From a virus: a stretch of 38,726 bases of DNA. The DNA lies in IMG/VR virus record IMGVR_UViG_3300025711_000247, positions 1 to 38,726 of that record, one strand, 5' to 3'. The position numbers and the translations under genes were made by a program. Shown here piece by piece: positions 1-11,118 of this stretch (position 1 is the stretch's first letter; each line of letters begins with the position of its first letter). The notes under the pieces were generated by a model. The model worked only from the letters and a program-made list of their open reading frames with translations. It was not told the DNA's origin and did not search any database.

Positions 1-369
1 GTGCTGACCTGTCCACAACGTACGCGTGAATACCTGACCCTGCATGTCGGGGCATTAGAGTACGAAGTGTTTGGCTTGATGTATTTGGACAACCGTCATC
101 ATTTGATTGCGGTGGAAGATTTATTTCGCGGCACGATTGATGGCGCCTCAGTGCATCCCCGCGAAGTGGTCAAGTCCGTCATCCATCATAGTGCGGCAGC
201 CTGTATCGCGTTTCACAACTATCCCAGTGGTCACTCACAACCCAGTCACGCAGATGAGCTGATCACGCTGCGATTGAAGGAAGCATTAGCGTTGGTCGAC
301 GTTCGCTTGCTGGATCATCTGATTGTGGGTGAAACGATGTATTCGTTTGCCGAAGCTGGGTTGCTATGA
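1..369 (+). CDS. RadC-like JAB/MPN+ domain protein, short form, probably 5' truncated by the window edge
   Basis: The 122 visible residues match the C-terminal JAB (MPN+) domain of RadC-type proteins: the FRGTIDGASVHPREV segment (residues 42-56) and the C-terminal LVDVRLLDHLIVG segment are typical. Short RadC proteins of about 150-165 residues are common on plasmids, prophages and islands; their biochemical role is unproven. The reading frame is open to base 1 (GTG), so the true start may lie upstream. The JAMM metal motif H-x-H-x7-S-x2-D reads H72-N-Y74-x7-S82-x2-D85, so the second histidine is tyrosine and metal binding may be impaired. A strong terminator follows directly. It is probably host or neighbouring-element DNA rather than part of the prophage. 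Confidence 0.85.
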   Translation: MLTCPQRTREYLTLHVGALEYEVFGLMYLDNRHHLIAVEDLFRGTIDGASVHPREVVKSVIHHSAAACIAFHNYPSGHSQPSHADELITLRLKEALALVDVRLLDHLIVGETMYSFAEAGLL

Positions 370-755: not shown

Positions 756-1043
756 TCAGTTCTTGTCTCGGTATTGCTCGAACCAAGCGACGATGTCTTT
801 CGCTTTCCATCGCGGCCGGCCGACGCCGCCGCCATCTTTCGGCAGCCGGTAGGGCTTCGGGAAGTCTGGCAGGCACGCATAACGCTCACGGACCTGACTA
901 TCGCTGACCTTGAGATAGGCCGCAATTTCCTTGGTGCTCCATACATCCTGATGGATCGGGATGGACGGCGGTAGATTGGCCGCCAGCGCGGCAACCAGTT
1001 TTTCCAGCGCTTCCAAAGATTCGATGCTCATATCGGTACTCAC
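756..1043 (-). CDS. AlpA-like winged-helix protein, probable excisionase/regulator
   Basis: The 95-residue protein has an AlpA/MerR-type helix-turn-helix: WSTKEIAAYLKVSDSQV (residues 35-51), then the family signature of LPDFPKPYRLP, an RPRW segment and a helix ending DIVAWFEQYR. AlpA-family proteins are small DNA-binding proteins often acting as excisionases or activators of excision genes. It is the last gene of the leftward operon, next to the presumed attachment core, which fits a recombination directionality factor. The GTG start overlaps the upstream stop as GTGA; an in-frame ATG lies at 1031. Confidence 0.8.
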   Translation of the reverse strand: MSTDMSIESLEALEKLVAALAANLPPSIPIHQDVWSTKEIAAYLKVSDSQVRERYACLPDFPKPYRLPKDGGGVGRPRWKAKDIVAWFEQYRDKN

Positions 1044-1453
1044 ATCTTTTCTGTGCTGTCTGGCGAACTAGACGGTGTTAACCACATGACTGGCGTACCG
1101 TATATCGCAAGCTTTAAAATCCCGCTTTCGGTATAACGCCTTGCGTCATAGGGCTGATAAAGCCATCGGTTAACGGCGAAATCATCAGGCGTTTTTAGTC
1201 CGGCCTCATATTCGCCCATGTGACCATCCGGCCATATAAGCTGCTCAGCATCGGTCAGCGTCTTGCAGCCAGCCTTATGCCTGATCGCGCCGCCCACGTT
1301 TTGCTGGCAGTAATTGCACCAAGTCATAGGTCCTATGCTTAGGTTCGCATCGGTCCGGCGAGCCAGGTCTTCTTCATGAATGCAGTCGCGGCACTCATGC
1401 GGCCAGCGGATACCGTGCTTGCATACCGCTGGTGAGGCCAGATGCTCGGTCAT
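1040..1453 (-). CDS. Hypothetical phage protein with putative zinc-binding cysteines
   Basis: I do not recognise a named family. The 137-residue product has an N-terminal C-x2-H...H-x-C-x2-C cluster (CKHG, HECRDC) and then CNYC, suggesting two zinc-binding sites, and a C-terminal part rich in aromatic residues. The start at 1453 is chosen because its ATG overlaps the stop of the preceding gene as ATGA; a longer GTG start at 1474 is possible. It overlaps the excisionase-like gene in the same way, so translation is probably coupled. Confidence 0.7.
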   Translation of the reverse strand: MTEHLASPAVCKHGIRWPHECRDCIHEEDLARRTDANLSIGPMTWCNYCQQNVGGAIRHKAGCKTLTDAEQLIWPDGHMGEYEAGLKTPDDFAVNRWLYQPYDARRYTESGILKLAIYGTPVMWLTPSSSPDSTEKM

Positions 1454-2832: not shown

Positions 2833-3420
2833 TCATGCCGCGTCCCAGCGAGACAGCGCATAGTTGATGATCGGCGTGATCTGATAATCAGCCAGCGGCT
2901 TCGGCTCTGCGGACACCCACTGAGTGCCGACAGGCCAATACACGTCCGCTTCTTCAAGCGGCGGTCCCTGCGGCCTGGTCATCAGCGTCACGGTGCCGTC
3001 CTGCGGCATGCTGCGGTGAATTTCGTTTGGCGCTTGCTCGTACACATCGCCCGGCAGGTATTGCTCAGGCTGGCAAACGTACAATTCAACCTCATCCGGT
3101 TCGCCAATGAGGCCACCGCCTTCGCCGGTTGCAATGCGCGAATGCATGTACCGCATGCCCTGATTCCTGAATGGCACTACTCGATCATCTTTGAACACGA
3201 ATCGGCAGTTGATCAGTTCTCCAGAAATGATCTCTGACCGGAGCGGCCACGGGTGCGTGTGCATCGTCGAGACATACTTGACGGTTAATGACGAGTCCCA
3301 TACGTGGATTCGGCCAACATTCGCGATCTTGGTACGAATGAAGCCGAAGCCCTGCGCAGTCCATTCATAGGATGCCCACTTCTCAAGGATCGACTTTACA
3401 AGCGCTGATTGGATATTCAT
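2833..3420 (-). CDS. Cupin-like phage protein (195 aa)
   Basis: The protein looks like a single-domain cupin: MHTHPWPLRSEIISGEL (about residues 53-69) carries the H-x-H of cupin motif 1, and a beta-rich stretch runs to EIHRSMPQDGTVTLMTRP (about 135-152), where H and the following strand could be motif 2. Cupins bind metal and small molecules and include dioxygenases; no substrate can be named here. It sits directly after the integrase gene with an ATGA overlap, so both are translated together. Confidence 0.6.
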   Translation of the reverse strand: MNIQSALVKSILEKWASYEWTAQGFGFIRTKIANVGRIHVWDSSLTVKYVSTMHTHPWPLRSEIISGELINCRFVFKDDRVVPFRNQGMRYMHSRIATGEGGGLIGEPDEVELYVCQPEQYLPGDVYEQAPNEIHRSMPQDGTVTLMTRPQGPPLEEADVYWPVGTQWVSAEPKPLADYQITPIINYALSRWDAA

Positions 3421-4241
3421 TCGAGTGGGTCCACTTCTCTAATGCCGCGGTCGTAAACGCGGCGGGTCATTGCCATGTTGGTATGGCCAGCTAACTGCAT
3501 GGCCGCTTCGATTGATTTGTTATCCGACACGCACTTGGCGCGCAGATCATGGAATGTGAATCTTTGCTTCAACACGCCGCGCTTCAACGCTCGACCCATC
3601 CAGCGCTGCCACAAAGCCTTGAAGCCTTCGGATGTGTACGGCTGGCCATCGCGGCGGCGAATCAGGTACAGACGTGGCAGCATCGGCGGAATCCGGCGAG
3701 CACGTACAAGCAGTTCCTCGAACTTCGGCGTGATGCGTATGGCCATCTTTTTGCCGGTCTTGCCCTGCTCGAAGTACATCAGGCGCTTGGTGACATCGAT
3801 CTGCCGCCAGGTAGCGCGCAGCAAATCGCCTTGCCGCTGGCCGCACATCAGCGCCAGTTCCATCGCAATCTTCACGGACGGCGATACGATGGCGTACAGC
3901 GCGGCGAATTCCTCATTGGTGATGTACCGGGTGCGGGGCTTCGTCTCGTTGCGCTCTACGCCTATGCAGGGGTTGCGCAGGTCATCGTGGGTATACCAAC
4001 GCCCCACGGCCTTGGAGAACACGGCAGACAGCACGCTGATGTGCCTGTTGGCCGATACCTTGCCGGTGTCCACATCCAGGAAGCGGCCAACGTCGCGAGG
4101 CTTTACGGCTAGGCAGTCCATCTCACCGAACGTCGCACGCAGCCGGCGAATGATGGCCTGATAGTCGCGCTGGGTACGCGGTGCCAGTTTAGGCACGCAC
4201 TCCTTCACGTACCTATCGAACAGTTCATTCATCGTGGTCAT
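3417..4241 (-). CDS. int: Tyrosine integrase (site-specific recombinase)
   Basis: The 274-residue protein has an N-terminal SAM-like arm (residues 5-90) and a catalytic domain with the full set of tyrosine recombinase residues: R136 (in GQRQGD), K161 (in GKTGKK), H231-x-x-R234 (FHDLR), H253 (AGHTN) and the nucleophile Y263 (RVYDR). It should catalyse integration and, with an excisionase, excision. The ATG at 4241 overlaps the preceding stop. Unusually it lies in the middle of the leftward operon, about 2.7 kb from the presumed attachment core. Confidence 0.96.
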   Translation of the reverse strand: MTTMNELFDRYVKECVPKLAPRTQRDYQAIIRRLRATFGEMDCLAVKPRDVGRFLDVDTGKVSANRHISVLSAVFSKAVGRWYTHDDLRNPCIGVERNETKPRTRYITNEEFAALYAIVSPSVKIAMELALMCGQRQGDLLRATWRQIDVTKRLMYFEQGKTGKKMAIRITPKFEELLVRARRIPPMLPRLYLIRRRDGQPYTSEGFKALWQRWMGRALKRGVLKQRFTFHDLRAKCVSDNKSIEAAMQLAGHTNMAMTRRVYDRGIREVDPLE

Positions 4242-7945: not shown

Positions 7946-8130
7946 TGCGCAACCTCCTTAACTTCAACCGTTGTCACTGGCAGTGCATCGAGTTCTGCAA
8001 GCGCTTGTTCATATCGATCAGCGCAATCATCAAGACCTTTGTCGCGTGCCAGACCGATGGCCATCATCAATGCAGCACTGATTCGACCAGCCAGCGCGCC
8101 TTCAATTAAGAAACCGGCTTTCATGCTCAT
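7942..8130 (-). CDS. Hypothetical protein (62 aa)
   Basis: A small helical protein (MSMKAGFLIEGALAGRISAA...) ending in a glutamate/valine-rich tail. The start at 8130 is chosen for its ATGA overlap with the preceding stop. Function unknown. Confidence 0.65.
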   Translation of the reverse strand: MSMKAGFLIEGALAGRISAALMMAIGLARDKGLDDCADRYEQALAELDALPVTTVEVKEVAQ

Positions 8131-8540
8131 CGTGCGATCTCCCCGAACTCTGGCTGACACACTTCATCCGCCATCAATGCCTGCCACGTGCGGCGATCGC
8201 GCTGGCAACGCTCGTCCCATTCCGGATTGCGCGGTTGCAGATCACGCAGGGCCAGCTGACGTTCGTATTGAATGACCGTCATCACGCGCAGCTCTTCTGG
8301 ATCGAGCAGAGGCTCGCCAGTCGCTTCGGCTAACGAATGGAAGTAGGTGGCCAGCACATCGAGGTTGCGGCCGGTGACTAGCCAGCGATCAAGGCTGCTC
8401 AAGTCGCTGTTGTCGTAAACAGGAGATTCGATCGCGCGCGCTTTGATCTGCAGCGTCTCGCGCTGTGACTCGCGGCGATCACGCTCGGCTTTGAGCTTGA
8501 TGGCGAGGCGGTCGATTTCGTTATGTGACTGATTACGCAT
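8127..8540 (-). CDS. First gene of the leftward early operon, hypothetical (137 aa)
   Basis: No family recognised; the protein is charged and mostly helical. The ATG at 8540 has GGGAGA 6 nt upstream, and promoter PL with two operator copies lies 30-65 bp upstream, so this is the first gene transcribed leftward. A longer frame to 8588 would run through the operator and is rejected. Confidence 0.75.
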   Translation of the reverse strand: MRNQSHNEIDRLAIKLKAERDRRESQRETLQIKARAIESPVYDNSDLSSLDRWLVTGRNLDVLATYFHSLAEATGEPLLDPEELRVMTVIQYERQLALRDLQPRNPEWDERCQRDRRTWQALMADEVCQPEFGEIAR

Positions 8541-8569: not shown

Positions 8570-8620
8570 TGGGGAAACTATTCCCCAATCAAGATGCGGT
8601 GTCAAGGAAAATTTTCCCCA
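8570..8620 (-). promoter_or_regulatory. Early leftward promoter PL with two operators (OL1, OL2)
   Basis: On the minus strand a perfect -35 TTGACA (8605-8600) is followed after exactly 17 nt by AATAGT (8582-8577) as -10. OL1 (8570-8587) reads TGGGGAA-ACTA-TTCCCCA, a perfect 7-bp dyad over the -10. OL2 (8603-8620) has an intact TTCCCCA arm and a 4/7 left arm over the -35. The same 18-bp pattern occurs at the repressor/Cro-like intergenic region, so the repressor encoded at 9107-9457 is the likely ligand. Confidence 0.85.
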
Positions 8621-8630
8621 ACAAGAAAAA

Positions 8631-9092
8631 TTATAGCGCCTTGTGCTCTGCTGGGATCGTGACGGCCCGCTCTGAATGATCGGGTTCAGTTGGTCTTTGG
8701 CGCAGTTTTACGATGATTTCCAACGCGCTGCCGTCACCGAGTTGAGCGCAATCGTCTAAGCTTCTTCTGACGTAAGGCCCAGGATCCAGTCGGCGTAATA
8801 TTTTTCGATAACGCGCCGTCAGCTCTTTTTCAAGAGCCAAGAATGGAGTGATGCAGGCAGATCGCGCCGCTCGCGTTAAATCGCTGGCCGTAACCTCCGC
8901 ATAGGCGTTTATAGCAGCGTATCTCTCGACGCAATCAACGTATGCCATGCAAGCGTCAGTGGTTGGATCTGTAGACGCGCGCGTGGCTTGGGCCTTTATT
9001 GGCGGAGGCTCAGTCCACGGTTCTACTGGCTTAGGCACATGGCAGCCACAAACAGCGCCTGCCACTATCGAACAAACAAATATTTTACGCAT
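8631..9092 (-). CDS. Putative outer-membrane lipoprotein, lysogenic (moron-type) gene
   Basis: The 153-residue protein begins MRKIFVCSIVAGAVCGC: a basic N terminus, hydrophobic stretch and lipobox V-C-G|C17, with H at +2 (not D), suggesting outer-membrane sorting. The mature part starts proline-rich (PKPVEPWTEPPP) and has four further cysteines, possibly two disulfides. No family recognised. It lies 14 nt after the repressor stop on the same strand and ends just before PL, so it is probably co-transcribed with the repressor in the lysogen. Superinfection exclusion or another conversion trait is an inference. Confidence 0.7.
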   Translation of the reverse strand: MRKIFVCSIVAGAVCGCHVPKPVEPWTEPPPIKAQATRASTDPTTDACMAYVDCVERYAAINAYAEVTASDLTRAARSACITPFLALEKELTARYRKILRRLDPGPYVRRSLDDCAQLGDGSALEIIVKLRQRPTEPDHSERAVTIPAEHKAL

Positions 9093-9106
9093 CCATGCCC
9101 GCCTGA

Positions 9107-9457
9107 CTATTTGCTTTTGTACTTCGCTGCCATCTCTGCAACGCCCAAAATCTTCTGGCGATCCTCGTCAGTGGCGTCATAAAAGTCGTCAATCAATTTT
9201 TCAATGACGTTCGCCTGAACGAGAGAGTTCTGAAGATCATGGCGCAGTAGTTGCCACGACTCCAAGCCAAATACCGCCGCTACGGCGTCAACGTTGGTAA
9301 GCGTTGGCTCAAATCTGCCATTCAGCATGTTGTTCAGGGTCTTTCGATCAATGCCGGCTTTTTCTGCAACACGCGGCGCCGTTGTCTGATTTGACTCAAT
9401 CAATACCTTGATGTTGTCAGCGACCAGTTTGGCGGGCTTTTTCCTAGGATTTTTCAT
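9107..9457 (-). CDS. XRE-type phage repressor (CI-like), no peptidase domain
   Basis: The 116-residue protein has an N-terminal XRE helix-turn-helix (about residues 10-70; APRVAEKAGIDRKTLNNMLNGRFEPTLTNVDAVAAVFG) and a short helical C terminus (IEKLIDDFYDATDEDRQKILGVAEMAAKY) that could mediate dimerisation. No S24 self-cleavage domain is present. The ATG at 9457 lies inside operator OR3, which allows autoregulation; a longer frame up to 9595 would run through PR and the Cro-like gene and is rejected. Divergent from the Cro-like gene, as expected of the immunity repressor. Confidence 0.88.
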   Translation of the reverse strand: MKNPRKKPAKLVADNIKVLIESNQTTAPRVAEKAGIDRKTLNNMLNGRFEPTLTNVDAVAAVFGLESWQLLRHDLQNSLVQANVIEKLIDDFYDATDEDRQKILGVAEMAAKYKSK

Positions 9458-9524
9458 GGGGAAATGCTTCCACACGCCCCGGGGAAAGTGCTCCTTGACA
9501 AATGGGGAAACATTTCCCCACAAT
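9457..9524 (+). promoter_or_regulatory. Early rightward promoter PR and three operators (OR3, OR2, OR1)
   Basis: PR has a perfect -35 TTGACA (9495-9500) and CACAAT (9519-9524) as -10, 18 nt apart. OR1 (9503-9520, TGGGGAA-ACAT-TTCCCCA) is a perfect dyad between the two boxes. OR2 (9480-9497) has GGGGAA and a poor right arm. OR3 (9457-9474) has arms TGGGGAA and TTCCACA (6 of 7) and covers the repressor start codon. Dyad centres at 9465.5, 9488.5 and 9511.5 are exactly 23 bp apart. No good -10/-35 pair for the repressor's own promoter is evident. Confidence 0.85.
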
Positions 9525-9530
9525 CGACCT

Positions 9531-9743
9531 ATGTCACTACTCGAACAAACGCAATCGCTACTCACAGCTTCGCTGGCCTCTGGGTTAAGTCTCAAGGACG
9601 TCGCCGACGAATCAAGTGGCGAAGTCGTCTATGAGTGGCTGAAGAAATTTTCGGCCGGAAAGATTGAAGACCCTGGTGTGACACGTGTGGAGGCACTTCA
9701 CCGGTGTCTCAGTCGCATACAGCAGCGCACGCTGGACGCTTAA
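9531..9743 (+). CDS. Cro-like repressor
   Basis: The 70-residue protein has a small XRE-like helix-turn-helix (GLSLKDVADESSGEVVYEWLKKFSAGKIEDPGVTRVEALHRCLS, about residues 18-60). It is the first rightward gene, directly behind PR, so it should compete with the repressor for the shared operators. There is no Shine-Dalgarno before the ATG, and the predicted transcription start (6-8 nt after the -10 at 9519-9524) falls on or next to the ATG, so the message may be leaderless. Confidence 0.75.
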   Translation: MSLLEQTQSLLTASLASGLSLKDVADESSGEVVYEWLKKFSAGKIEDPGVTRVEALHRCLSRIQQRTLDA

Positions 9744-10356: not shown

Positions 10357-11118
10357 ATGAATTGGTACAAGCGACACATCGGCGACTACATAAAAGATTG
10401 CGCGCACCTCTCATTAATTGAGCACGGTGTGTACTCGCGCTTGCTCGATGTTTATTACACCCGTGAGTCCGGCATTCCTGATGACCAGGCAGCGCGACTT
10501 GTTGGTGCTCGCAGCAAGGAAGAACGAGCTGCACTCAAGGCGGTGTTAAGTGAGTTTTTCCAGCTAAAAGAAGGCATTTGGACGCAAGCTCGTTGTGAGG
10601 AAGAGATCAGTGCAGCGAGTGAAGTAGCAACTACGAATCGTGAAATTGCACTCCAACGTGAAGCTAAAAAGCGTGCTGAAAAGGAAGCACGAGAGAAGCA
10701 CGAACCGACCACGAATCGTGCTCAAAGCGTGCAACGGTCTGATCACGAACCGACCACCTCCCAGACTCCAGACTCCATAAGCCATAAGCCAGACACCAGT
10801 AAGAACCAAGAGCAACTCGCTATCGCTCGTGCTTGGCCGGGGTTGGAAATAGATCAGTTCGATCGATGGATCGAATACCGCAAGCAACGCAAGCCAGCCA
10901 TCAAGCCTGCGAGCTATCTGGCACTTGCCAAAGAACTCACCAGTTTTGCCGAACAGCAGGCAACCGTCGTGCAGCACAGCATCGCGAATGGTTACCAAGG
11001 CTTGTTCCCGCCAAAGACCAACGGCGCATCAGTCACGACCCTGAAACCACGAACAACTCGATTCGAGCAAGCCATGCAGGCGCTTGGAGATACCGGCGAT
11101 GAAAGCATCAAGTTTTAA
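10357..11118 (+). CDS. DUF1376 replication initiation-type protein (lambda O-like role)
   Basis: The N terminus MNWYKRHIGDYIKDCAHLSLIEHGVYSRLLDVYY is the DUF1376/YdaU signature, seen in proteins at the replication-initiator position of many lambdoid and other temperate phages. A basic, charged linker (about 95-140) precedes a C-terminal helical part (WPGLEIDQFDRWIEYRKQRKP) like that in initiator proteins. The following gene looks like a loader, supporting an O/P-type pair. The ATG has GGGAGGG 7 nt upstream inside a potential RNA stem. Confidence 0.82.
   Translation: MNWYKRHIGDYIKDCAHLSLIEHGVYSRLLDVYYTRESGIPDDQAARLVGARSKEERAALKAVLSEFFQLKEGIWTQARCEEEISAASEVATTNREIALQREAKKRAEKEAREKHEPTTNRAQSVQRSDHEPTTSQTPDSISHKPDTSKNQEQLAIARAWPGLEIDQFDRWIEYRKQRKPAIKPASYLALAKELTSFAEQQATVVQHSIANGYQGLFPPKTNGASVTTLKPRTTRFEQAMQALGDTGDESIKF

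Follow-up and report, generated by a model that had tools for sequence, protein, structure and literature searches.

In phage lambda, the PL promoter carries three operator sites, the CI repressor has a LexA-like peptidase domain, the cI message is leaderless, and OR3 is the site at which Cro acts. A second point of reference is the short repressor of a Salmonella temperate phage in PDB entry 5d4z, which we take to be the antirepressor-controlled SPC32H Rep. The region analyzed here is, judging from its sequence, very probably a temperate phage's immunity switch, in which a repressor and a Cro stand divergently as in lambda. A preliminary description had proposed an immunity region at this place, and the proposal is supported by an HTH_3 match in the repressor, by a promoter scan that puts promoters under the sites, by an integrase gene, and by the same five-site layout in a relative. 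In what follows we infer the Cro function, the binding partners, cooperativity, autoregulation, the repressor's own promoter and the route of induction.

The window, that is, the whole stretch of DNA analyzed, makes up the entire virus record and is 38,726 bases long. Pfam and PHROG matches among its genes include an integrase, an excisionase-like protein, a RecE/YqaJ-type exonuclease, a DUF1376 replication protein, a terminase, a head-tail adaptor and an endolysin, and by this gene content the phage is a temperate, tailed one. Both genes that we looked for as marks of a temperate phage are present: a tyrosine integrase (3417-4241, minus strand; phrog_1, 2e-51; Pfam Phage_integrase, 3e-17) and an excisionase-like gene (756-1043). 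The record opens within a reading frame (1-369, plus strand) whose PHROG match is to a DNA repair protein (RadC-like).

The repressor gene (9107-9457, minus strand) encodes a 116-aa helix-turn-helix (HTH) protein with matches to HTH_3 (7e-7) and to the transcriptional repressor family phrog_4583 (3e-11). Its AlphaFold2 model is all-helical (pLDDT 81), and as modeled the protein is an HTH domain with a helical C-terminal part. Fold searches matched it to HTH repressors, including P22 C2 and the Salmonella repressor 5d4z, the latter weakly both in fold (E 0.008) and in sequence (E 0.23). A LexA-like (S24) peptidase domain was not found in the repressor, where the Pfam matches above the cut-off are to HTH families only, so one would not expect it to give SOS induction through self-cleavage; LexA-type boxes showed no excess over chance. 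Close relatives of the repressor were found neither in viral_contigs nor in annotated phages nor in 398 Pseudomonadota genomes, and a search of five genomes with terminase relatives returned nothing. Likewise, tblastn of 23 viral loci with terminase relatives gave no match to the window's repressor or Cro-like protein, and no near match to the immunity stretch turned up in the phage collection. Loose tblastn matches to the repressor in phages and plasmids resemble generic XRE proteins and were set aside.

Five copies of TGGGGAA-N4-TTCCCCA had been reported around this gene, and all five were recovered where they had been placed. Two of these dyads, which have no strand of their own, lie at PL with their centers 33 bp apart: OL1 (8570-8587; 14/14, TGGGGAA-ACTA-TTCCCCA, TGGGGAAACTATTCCCCA) and OL2 (8603-8620; 11/14, three mismatches, CAAGGAAAATTTTCCCCA). 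The other three lie at PR, namely OR3 (9457-9474; 13/14, TGGGGAAATGCTTCCACA), OR2 (9480-9497; 9/14, five mismatches, CGGGGAAAGTGCTCCTTG) and OR1 (9503-9520; 14/14, TGGGGAAACATTTCCCCA), with centers at 9465.5, 9488.5 and 9511.5, which bears out the exact 23-bp spacing claimed for them. Three copies with at most one mismatch are observed, against none in 200 dinucleotide shuffles of the window, and copies with two mismatches or fewer occur in the record only at 8570, 9457 and 9503. Moreover, of all perfect inverted repeats with 7-bp arms and spacers of 0-10, just one, TGGGGAA with a spacer of 4, is present twice in the window; a recurring perfect repeat of this kind appeared in none of 60 shuffles. 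The predicted operator core shared by the sites is GGAA-N4-TTCC, with three copies at PR and two at PL. OR3 had been said to cover the start codon of the repressor; it does overlap it, but of the ATG it covers no more than the initial A (9457). The same site also covers the Shine-Dalgarno-like GGAAG of the repressor gene.

The full five-site arrangement was found in a single relative, a 12.3-kb fragment of an uncultured phage (contig IMGVR_UViG_3300036772_000274; L175 below) on which no integrase was found. Its gene order is that of the window, with a small putative lipoprotein, the repressor, the sites, the Cro-like gene and further rightward genes. The two repressors are 31% identical and keep the recognition-helix pattern GID-x-KT-x-NN. 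The operators of L175 lie at 901-918 (OL1), 933-950 (OL2), 1614-1631 (OR3), 1636-1653 (OR2) and 1659-1676 (OR1), which gives center spacings of 32 bp at OL and of 22 and 23 bp at OR, as compared with 33 bp and 23/23 bp in the window; in either phage, OR3 has the A of the repressor's ATG as its first base. Identities to the window sites, out of 18, are 11 for OL1, 15 for OL2, 12 for OR3, 15 for OR2 and 12 for OR1, while adjacent stretches are near chance (5/30, 10/30 and 7/30). When the PR blocks are aligned on TTGACA, 58 of 105 positions agree; shifted registers give 25.7 on average and 38 at most. The half-sites of L175 have changed in their outer bases (TRRGGAA-N4-TTYCCYA) and keep GGAA in eight of ten cases, a pattern of retained core and altered outer base pairs that fits the prediction of selection on a bound site.

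The first gene of the PR operon (9531-9743, plus strand, coordinates refined from those given before) encodes a 70-aa Cro-like HTH protein. Its family match is weak (phrog_9425, transcriptional repressor, 0.006), and its model is helical (pLDDT 77); the protein had no match in Pfam and none with E <= 0.001 in a fold search. L175 carries its only relative in the viral-contig search (55% identity). An HTH repressor and a small Cro-like HTH gene thus stand divergently at this locus, the Cro side being recognized by position and weak similarity. In annotated records, homologues occur in phages of Xanthomonas, Sphingomonas, Pseudomonas, Stenotrophomonas and others, directly ahead of a rightward primase/helicase gene and mostly opposite leftward genes. 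No repressor is annotated alongside these homologues (L176, L177, L182-L193), and for this reason the Cro function is assigned here by position. One group of Pseudomonas, Stenotrophomonas and Variovorax phages with such homologues has a different palindrome in the divergent gap.

The distribution of the Cro-like family lends itself to another explanation, in which the operators mainly serve the Cro-like protein as a general regulator of early genes, and in which the 116-aa HTH protein binds elsewhere or does something else. The many phages in which a homologue is the first rightward gene of a replication operon, with no annotated repressor adjoining, speak for it. However, none of the divergent gaps upstream of the homologues in those other phages contains GGAA-N4-TTCC, whereas the sites are present where the repressor gene is, in the window and in L175; the position of OR3 at the start of the repressor, too, suits control of the repressor. 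We therefore consider this explanation unlikely and prefer to read the sites as repressor operators of an immunity switch. How such a switch arose is a matter for tentative suggestion: it is possible, though we would not lean on it, that the Cro-like gene represents an old regulator of early operons common to phages without an annotated repressor beside it, and that a small HTH repressor placed next to it gave an immunity system, with operators built into both -35 boxes.

A promoter scan of 8.1-10.4 kb, made independently of the operator sites, found three promoter-like sites, two of them with a perfect TTGACA; shuffles would give 1.5 such consensus matches, which are in themselves no proof of activity. 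The two with TTGACA are the predicted PR (9495-9524, plus strand; TTGACA, 18 bp, CACAAT) and the predicted PL (8577-8605, minus strand; TTGACA, 17 bp, AATAGT), and they coincide exactly with the operators, so that the same dyads overlap both early promoters. OR1 occupies the PR spacer and extends into the -10. At PL, where the two copies had been described as covering the -10 and the -35, OL1 does cover the -10, but OL2 overlaps only the TTG of the -35 box; OR2, like OL2, takes in the TTG of its own box. L175 retains this fusion, and its PR reads TTGACA, 18 bp, TACAGT. The end of the PR -10 is 6 bp from the Cro-like ATG in the window (9519-9531) and 10 bp in L175 (1675-1691), and no Shine-Dalgarno sequence is visible ahead of the gene in either; the short gap and the missing Shine-Dalgarno together suggest that the cro mRNA is leaderless or nearly so in both phages.

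The fusion also bears on the two weaker sites, at 8603 and 9480, which might be no operators at all, leaving three real sites and a chance resemblance to -35 boxes. By mismatch count alone the 9480 site is indeed not significant, its five mismatches being indistinguishable from chance (left half 6/7, right half 3/7). Read on the strand of PR, OR2 is CGGGGAAAGTGCTCCTTGACA, and OL2 on the minus strand is TGGGGAAAATTTTCCTTGACA; OR2 and OL2 depart from the consensus in the same half because part of the -35 hexamer falls within it. Both match the composite GGGGAAA-N4-TCCTTGACA without a mismatch (9481-9500, plus strand, and 8619-8600, minus strand), and these are its only two occurrences in the window, with no further match at up to three mismatches (shuffle mean 0.23). 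Among the retrieved loci, the looser form GGAA-N5-TCCTTGACA is confined to L175 and pieces of the window. Because the mismatch count does not suffice by itself, this shared -35 composite, absent from the preliminary description, is our main argument that the predicted 9480 site is real, and conservation in L175 backs it further, the 8603 and 9480 sites being the best conserved of the five (15/18 each). A three-site reading is thus very improbable, and we retain five predicted operators.

It is scarcely credible that the repeats serve a host regulator, or a protein of replication or packaging, instead of being immunity operators, since nothing specific speaks for it beyond same-sequence palindromes in other viral contigs, some of them spread repeats, and the good copies in this record lie at PL and PR only. 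An exact operator scan of viral_contigs gave mostly unrelated matches. One unrelated viral contig (L063, 8015-8179) has three exact TGGGGAA-N4-TTCCCCA copies 73-74 bp apart and no proteins related to the window's; these copies perhaps belong to a separate regulator with the same site. In the literature, a search on the operator sequence yielded nothing relevant by title or abstract.

Based on this layout we can outline how an immunity switch with five operators would work. The repressor and Cro-like genes diverge in their transcription. In the lysogen, repressor bound at OR1/OR2 and OL1/OL2 would cover, in both early promoters, the -35 together with the spacer or the -10, and would thereby silence the recombination and integration genes to the left and the replication genes to the right. 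Each of OR2 and OL2 is a composite element, one half-site being bent to hold the -35 hexamer. Since the ribosome-binding site of the repressor gene, and also its first base, lie under OR3, occupancy of OR3 would limit repressor synthesis. Between OR1 and the repressor start, no sigma-70-like promoter for the repressor (PRM) was found by the scan, which weak or activated promoters would escape.

The genes around the switch fit into two operons. Directly downstream of PL, the first gene is an open reading frame for a 137-aa protein (8127-8540, minus strand) with no Pfam or PHROG match, and downstream of PR lies the DUF1376 replication protein, primosomal or O-like (10357-11118, plus strand; Pfam DUF1376, 9e-31; PHROG primosomal protein). 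The gene 14 bp behind that of the repressor, where lambda has rexAB, encodes a 153-aa putative lipoprotein (8631-9092, minus strand) with a signal-peptide-like start followed by a Cys. L175 has a small putative lipoprotein in the same slot (986-1276, minus strand), and the two show no similarity to each other. The slot behind the repressor is a candidate location for exclusion genes expressed in the lysogen.

Taken together, the comparison gives a legible and comparatively supported immunity specificity for a group of uncultured temperate phages, with predicted operators of two types, built from TGGGGAA and TRRGGAA half-sites. It also brings to notice a small Cro-like family whose gene comes first in the replication operon of many other phages; we know of no tested function for it.

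Among known systems, 5d4z is similar in being a short repressor whose HTH is accompanied by a helical C-terminal part, with homology established no further than the HTH; unlike in that system, no antirepressor was identified in the window. The comparison with lambda OL/OR holds for the layout, except that the PL sites are two rather than three and lie 33 bp apart. As had been noted before, the operator sequence is unrelated to lambda's and the repressor is small. It is half the size of lambda's and lacks its peptidase domain, and the likeness does not extend to its architecture. In addition, unlike in lambda, one half-site of OR2 and of OL2 takes in part of the -35 box, the scan recognized no PRM, and the gene that may be leaderless is cro rather than cI. 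As in lambda, on the other hand, repressor and Cro-like genes are divergent, dyad operators overlap PR and PL with three of them about 23 bp apart at PR, a gene follows the repressor in the rex slot, and recombination and integration lie to the left and replication to the right. The switch is thus ordinary in kind, a clean new example that leaves the understanding of phage switches as it stands.
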